Assembly (NCBI GenBank): GCA_944386605.1
Contig: CALXBS010000006.1
Coordinates: 1 to 54,794 of the forward strand
Length of the DNA stretch: 54,794 nucleotides
Source of the DNA: an uncultured Clostridia bacterium
Lineage (GTDB): Bacteria > Bacillota > Clostridia > TANB77 > CAG-465
Reading direction: 5' to 3'
Shown: piece by piece, positions 14,344 to 14,572 of the stretch
Layout of the letters: every line of letters starts with the position of its first letter
How positions within the stretch are numbered: the stretch's first letter is position 1
Made by a program: the position numbers and the translations under genes
Notes under the pieces: model-generated
Seen by the model: the letters and a program-made list of their open reading frames with translations, nothing else
Told to the model about the DNA's origin: nothing
The model's database searches: none

Positions 14344-14572
14344 CTCTCCTTTCTTTTTTCTTTCGTTTTTGCATTTTTATGTTATTCATTCTTTTTAGTT
14401 GATTTGACAAATCATAGTTTTTGGAATGTTTTTAAAACTATGTTGTGTGTGTGTGTGTGTGTGTGTGTGTGTGTGTAGTCCAATCATACTTTCAAAGTTT
14501 TTTGTTAACATAATTTTTTGAACTTTTCTGCAATATTTCTATTACACCCGCATACTACCATTTCTTATTTTG
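14344..14572. repeat. Surface-gene upstream element, copy 1
   Basis: About 230 bp that recur with high similarity at 50440-50655 and 54635-54794, each time right before the start of a surface protein on the minus strand. On the minus strand the order is: a conserved block with TATGAT as possible -10 box, GGACTAC, an (AC)n run, an inverted repeat built on ATAGTTTT/AAAACTAT, then a leader to the ribosome binding site. The element probably contains promoter and 5' untranslated region. Confidence 0.8.
14444..14476. repeat. (TG)16 microsatellite in copy 1
   Basis: 33 bases of pure TG repeat, 16 units. The other two copies have 11 units each (50543-50565 and 54736-54758). It sits between the possible -10 box and the leader of the Cna-B gene, so length changes could alter transcription or leader folding. 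Confidence 0.95.

Follow-up and report, generated by a model that had tools for sequence, protein, structure and literature searches.

In sister species of the bacterium from which the window derives (the window being the whole stretch of 54,794 nucleotides analysed here, from an uncultured Clostridia bacterium), surface protein genes stand behind short leader ORFs that contain a slippage-prone repeat and are followed by an intrinsic terminator. We consider it likely that these modules are frame-switched attenuators of the Pil1/Pil3 kind and that the mechanism operates at the level of the genus, because their anatomy matches, feature by feature, the one described for Streptococcus gallolyticus (Danne et al. 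2014, PMC3894217). Under such a mechanism, surface proteins would probably be switched on and off by repeat length, with one or two of them on per genome. In Pil1 and Pil3, a change in the repeat within the leader ORF lengthens the leader and the ribosome then blocks the terminator; the Pil1 effect requires both the leader ATG and the terminator, and expression is low when the leader stops at least 28 nt before the hairpin and high when it stops at the hairpin or in it (PMC3894217). This leader-repeat-terminator switch is known from two pilus loci of one Streptococcus (PMC3894217), and it was the sole match in kind when the literature on leader peptides, repeats and phase variation was searched.

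Within the window, the first-pass annotation had described three near-identical elements with a TG run, each directly before a surface protein gene. The elements are real and, read on the minus strand, contain (CA)16, (CA)11 and (CA)11 (copies A, B and C, respectively), the outer two sharing 86% and 96% identity with the middle one (BLAST). Their placement before surface protein genes was also borne out, with a distance of 105-109 nt from the element to the minus-strand ORF in all three cases. The corresponding features are the following:

9980..14338, minus strand: surface protein gene behind copy A, with 4 Cna_B domains and N- and C-terminal membrane segments
14395..14511, minus strand: leader ORF of copy A (MLTKNFESMIGLHTHTHTHTHTQHSFKNIPKTMICQIN, then stop)
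14444..14475, minus strand: (CA)16 microsatellite within the leader ORF of copy A
14552..14557, minus strand: putative -10 hexamer TAGTAT of copy A (extended -10 TGG)
14575..14580, minus strand: putative -35 hexamer TTGAAA of copy A, 17 bp from TAGTAT
47999..49879, minus strand: interrupted surface gene behind copy B, 3' part
49951..50433 (ORF 49951-50451), minus strand: interrupted InlB-repeat-type surface gene behind copy B, 5' part
50478..50600, minus strand: leader ORF of copy B (MLTKNFESMIGLHTHTHTHNIVLKTSPKLCFSLIMLKKNK, then stop)
50496..50577, minus strand: predicted hairpin of copy B (-18.0 kcal/mol, z -3.7) in which the CA run bulges out
50543..50564, minus strand: (CA)11 microsatellite of copy B
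50641..50646, minus strand: putative -10 hexamer TAGTAT of copy B
50664..50669, minus strand: putative -35 hexamer TTGTAA of copy B
52153..54627, minus strand: surface protein gene behind copy C, with List_Bact/InlB B-type repeat
54687..54771, minus strand: predicted hairpin of copy C (-25.5 kcal/mol, z -5.0) in which the CA run bulges out
54698..54793, minus strand: leader ORF of copy C (MLTKNFESMIGLHTHTHTHNIVLKTFQKTML, then stop), where the end of the window is reached
54736..54757, minus strand: (CA)11 microsatellite of copy C

Unlike copies B and C, copy A (14344) gave no such CA-bulge hairpin on folding (z -0.3). The gene behind copy B is split by the gap at 49880-49950, and one of its two ORFs matches the N-terminal part, the other the C-terminal part, of its intact paralogue, the gene at 52153-54627. 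An imperfect 285-bp tandem repeat lies in the Cna_B region of the first surface gene (10157-10669), and the same-strand genes ahead of copy A (14617-22992) include small membrane-anchored, surface-protein-like products of unassigned function. Pilin-like N-terminal segments occur in several of the leader-preceded surface proteins, while the genes behind the leaders of two sister species encode BspA-type LRR proteins (G006) and PARCEL/DUF285 proteins (G018).

A count of three understates the number of elements in the window genome. Searching its 1.66 Mb with BLAST returned 41 matches, with identities of 79-96% over the query, and at least 51 distinct run-bearing copies are listed in the pooled catalogue. 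Since about 342 of the 348 overlapping (CA)7 matches of this genome fall within the element (summed by hand), the association between run and element is far beyond chance. The copies carry between 9 and 25 units, the distribution peaking sharply at 11 units (24 of about 49 copies), and interrupted runs were seen in two copies only, both of which are still 22 nt long. No element copy was found on viral contigs, and Rfam returned no match among six loci.

The run had been placed behind a possible TATGAT -10 box, where its length could tune the initiation of transcription. TATGAT does look like a -10 hexamer and lies close to the run, but TAGTAT or TAATAT is present well upstream as the -10 element in 38/38 readable window-genome copies, a TTG-type -35 hexamer precedes it by 17 bp in 37/38, and the distance from the start of this promoter motif to the run is 85 nt in 35/38 copies. 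Given this upstream promoter, TATGAT is unlikely to be a -10 box; it holds the ATG of the leader ORF, and the homologous position in the sister species is a start codon behind a Shine-Dalgarno sequence. Tuning of initiation by the run is hardly credible on this evidence, and a phase-variable promoter spacer was rejected as well, the run lying neither between nor beside the promoter hexamers. Of the original suggestion that slippage switches the surface genes, the switch itself is well supported for the sister species by their leader, repeat and terminator anatomy, whereas the route through the promoter, located 85 nt upstream, does not stand.

The (CA)n run sits inside a short leader ORF of the form M-I-x-L-HTHTHT..., represented in the window species by MLTKNFESMIGLHTHTHTH. 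Homologous ATG...CTA-repeat leaders were found in seven sister species (G004, G006, G011, G015, G018, G026, and G027), of which G004 and G006 are Clostridia MAGs; each species is represented by one assembly, at least some of these being metagenomic, and all run lengths are those of the assembly consensus. The motif in the sister species consists of a good Shine-Dalgarno sequence followed by ATG-xx-xx-CTA-repeat, and the leader ORFs read MIRLHTHTHTHT in G006, MVTKVHKIVNELHTHTHTHNVVL in G004 and MIKLHTHTHTHTQVL in G015, each closed by a stop codon, and MVTKGRTNSIELHTHT in G011. In G018 and G026, TACA units replace CA in the same leader (MNTLYIHTYIHTYIHT), with (TACA)5.5-20. As homologous leaders carry either CA or TACA, the conserved feature reads as a slippage-prone repeat directly behind ATG-xx-xx-CTA, and no particular peptide is conserved. 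Run length differs between paralogs of the sister species; in G004 nearly all copies have n = 11, hence there is little standing length variation.

An intrinsic terminator is predicted between the leader and the surface gene in the five well-sampled sister species (G004, G006, G015, G018, and G026), with strong folding (z -3.8 to -8.1 in four examples). At least one exit frame from the repeat is open into the hairpin in 86 of the 89 copies from these species (G004 20/21, G006 12/12, G015 23/25, G018 11/11, and G026 20/20), whereas dinucleotide shuffles, a crude null for such short spacers, would give about 18; the paralogs are also related and not independent. A single exit frame is open in 85/89 copies, and for 84 of the 87 reaching frames the stop codon falls within the hairpin. 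The peptide encoded by the long frame gave no sign of purifying selection, as synonymous changes were not in excess in four of the five species, and selection on its sequence was rejected on this ground; it is the openness of the long frame that appears to be kept, not its amino acids. G011 and G027 were left out of the main count for being too small or too noisy, and G027 fits poorly, with 3/6 candidate copies having no hairpin-reaching frame and some of the candidates being spurious run matches.

The state of each copy was called from the published Pil1 distances, i.e., a stop at least 28 nt before the hairpin was taken as OFF and a stop at or in the hairpin as ON. By their actual frames, 79 of the 89 copies were OFF, 4 intermediate and 6 ON, with one or two ON copies in each of the five sister species; random frames would give about 30/89 ON. 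When the smaller samples were added, 7/97 copies were ON (binomial p ~1e-9 against one third, the paralogs not being independent). The rarity of the long frame as the actual frame is read directly from the sequences, and so are the anatomy of the leader with its repeat, the terminator, the openness of the long frame and the differences in repeat length between paralogs. In G015, for instance, 21 copies have n = 12 or 13, both of which are OFF lengths, while of the two ON lengths n = 11 does not occur and n = 14 is found in one intact copy. In the ON copy of G006 (L193) the start codon is degenerate, the ATG being lost, and the copy precedes a transposase-like gene, for which reasons this genome may have zero true ON copies. 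In G004 the assembly breaks within the ON locus: two contigs share exactly 55 nt, this overlap ends at (CA)10, and the 35-nt sequence upstream is unique among the loci compared. Mixed run lengths would produce such a fork in the assembly graph, but the break is no more than suggestive of one. Two leaders of G015 have runs shrunk to 2 or 4 units; one of them is fixed in the long frame, and the gene that follows it is not surface-protein-like.

In the proposed mechanism, the module of the sister species would comprise, in order, a promoter, a Shine-Dalgarno sequence, the ATG, at least three codons ending in CTA, and (CA)n or (TACA)n, followed on the 3' side by a spacer of 30-90 nt, the intrinsic terminator and the surface gene. 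Slippage would alter n and hence the reading frame of the leader. At least one exit frame (usually exactly one) would enter the terminator hairpin and stop inside it, and the remaining frames would stop early. A ribosome in the long frame would keep the terminator unfolded, allowing the surface gene to be transcribed (ON), and a short leader would leave the terminator free to fold (OFF). By analogy with Pil1, we infer ON/OFF transcription in the sister species, and leader translation, termination and slippage within a population would take place in these bacteria as well. We are evenly divided on the wider proposal of a genome-wide repertoire, in which more than 10 to about 28 surface loci per genome would each have their own leader and terminator and would be OFF with one or two exceptions, CA and TACA having been exchanged while the device was kept. 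If true, slippage and attenuation alone would make up an antigenic display system, and a switch regularly placed before the members of large surface-gene families in uncultured Clostridia would amount to a general route to surface variation. With such a rule, whether a gene is ON or OFF could be told from a genome or from metagenomic reads, and single-gene display and its changes within the host would become directly testable.

The sister-species modules share with Pil1/Pil3 an RBS-bearing leader ORF with a tandem repeat inside it, an intrinsic terminator before the surface gene, a long frame that ends in or near the hairpin and a short frame that ends at least 28 nt before it. The repeat of Pil1/Pil3 is a GCAGA pentanucleotide at two pilus loci, whereas here it is CA or TACA at 11 to 25 analysed loci per genome; what is new is this scale, together with the replacement of one repeat unit by another and the OFF state of nearly all copies. 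Further differences from the pilus operons are that single surface genes are concerned, that the bacteria belong to another class, that one or two copies per genome are in the long frame, and that the window species has a terminator-less derived form. In the pyrBI and ampC attenuators of E. coli, translation of the leader into the terminator prevents termination, as proposed here, but these systems have neither a repeat nor frame switching. Contingency loci with 5' coding repeats (e.g., the lic genes of Haemophilus) also have their reading frame shifted by slippage, but there it is the surface gene's own frame that shifts, whereas here a separate leader ORF is affected and in-frame fusion is not enriched. 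In the vlhA family of Mycoplasma gallisepticum few genes are active at once, which is a likeness to the system proposed here. As here, dozens of vlhA surface genes each have a variable repeat (GAA) upstream, but that repeat lies in the promoter region (PMC6258824), and the one described here lies past the promoter, inside a leader ORF.

The module of the window species reads as a derived form, in which promoter, leader and repeat are kept and the terminator and a good leader ribosome binding site are missing. The leader ORF is present in nearly all window-genome copies, with a start that lacks a clear Shine-Dalgarno sequence, and no convincing intrinsic terminator was found after the leader in this genome. 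The only hairpin there is U-poor and starts at the run itself, so that no frame is kept out of it. RNAalifold yielded no usable consensus for the window copies, the aligner having placed the arms badly; when pairing was followed copy by copy, the outer arm was present in about two thirds of the long copies. Any switching in the window species is hypothetical, because a convincing terminator was not found there, and we lean slightly against its copies acting by any frame-dependent route. The best alternative for this species is translational coupling, in which the stopping point of the leader ribosome with respect to the ribosome binding site of the surface gene would depend on run length (termination-reinitiation or overlap). 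The absence of the terminator would suit such a route, as would the finding that, in copies with a short distance to the gene, the n = 11 leader often ends 21-27 nt ahead of the gene ATG, other values of n leading to a stop 36 nt before it or to overlap with the gene start. It remains doubtful in view of the weak leader ribosome binding site and of the long copies, which stop 18-105 nt before the gene in no clear pattern. Complete in-frame fusion of leader and gene, which would place the repeat in the gene's own frame, was at chance level (4/41 window-genome copies against 3.4 expected), which speaks against the translational route and led us to reject fusion as a mechanism.

Three further explanations concern the module as a whole. 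It could be a duplicated 5' region homogenised by gene conversion, with repeat number having no effect, and the 79-96% identity of the window copies together with their missing terminator would fit; we find this improbable, since diverged copies from several species keep the long frame open and yet avoid it as the actual frame. The same relation between open frame and terminator would be left unexplained if the run were a CA-rich RNA element, either a translation enhancer or the target of a GU-rich small RNA or protein. CA repeats behind the start codon are a known type of enhancer and CA is pure across dozens of copies, but sister species swap CA for TACA, which makes such an element quite improbable.

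That swap also bears on a nutrient-sensing attenuator, in which the His and Thr codons of the leader would sense charged tRNA as in the his or thr operon leaders. A leader encoding HTHTHT and followed by a terminator would be expected of such a device, but two species have Tyr-Ile-His-Thr instead, encoded by (TACA)n, and the runs consist of pure CAC/ACA, synonymous codons being almost absent from them. The targets, moreover, are surface proteins rather than biosynthesis, and inspection, by eye only, showed no antiterminator pairing, so that we give nutrient sensing very little credence. The frame-switched attenuator remains our preferred reading for the sister species.

Some related arrangements were observed alongside the main set. 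A (CA)10 leader copy (L240, G000 C32) precedes a gene whose start is unlike that of the surface family. In another family of the order (G093, L252), a (CA)14 leader beginning with MANAVMLEALHTHT is followed by a terminator and then by a pilin-like gene; the terminator arms contain ACACAC and GUGUGU, and one frame reaches the hairpin. In the sister species G023 (L276-L280), pilin-like surface genes have no such leader and a T13 homopolymer lies just before AGTGTATGCTATAAG, where it is possibly a promoter-spacer phase switch. Within the window, two 75-nt segments that are 96% identical (24472-24546 and 26048-26122) flank a putative ATPase gene and a 33-nt tandem repeat.
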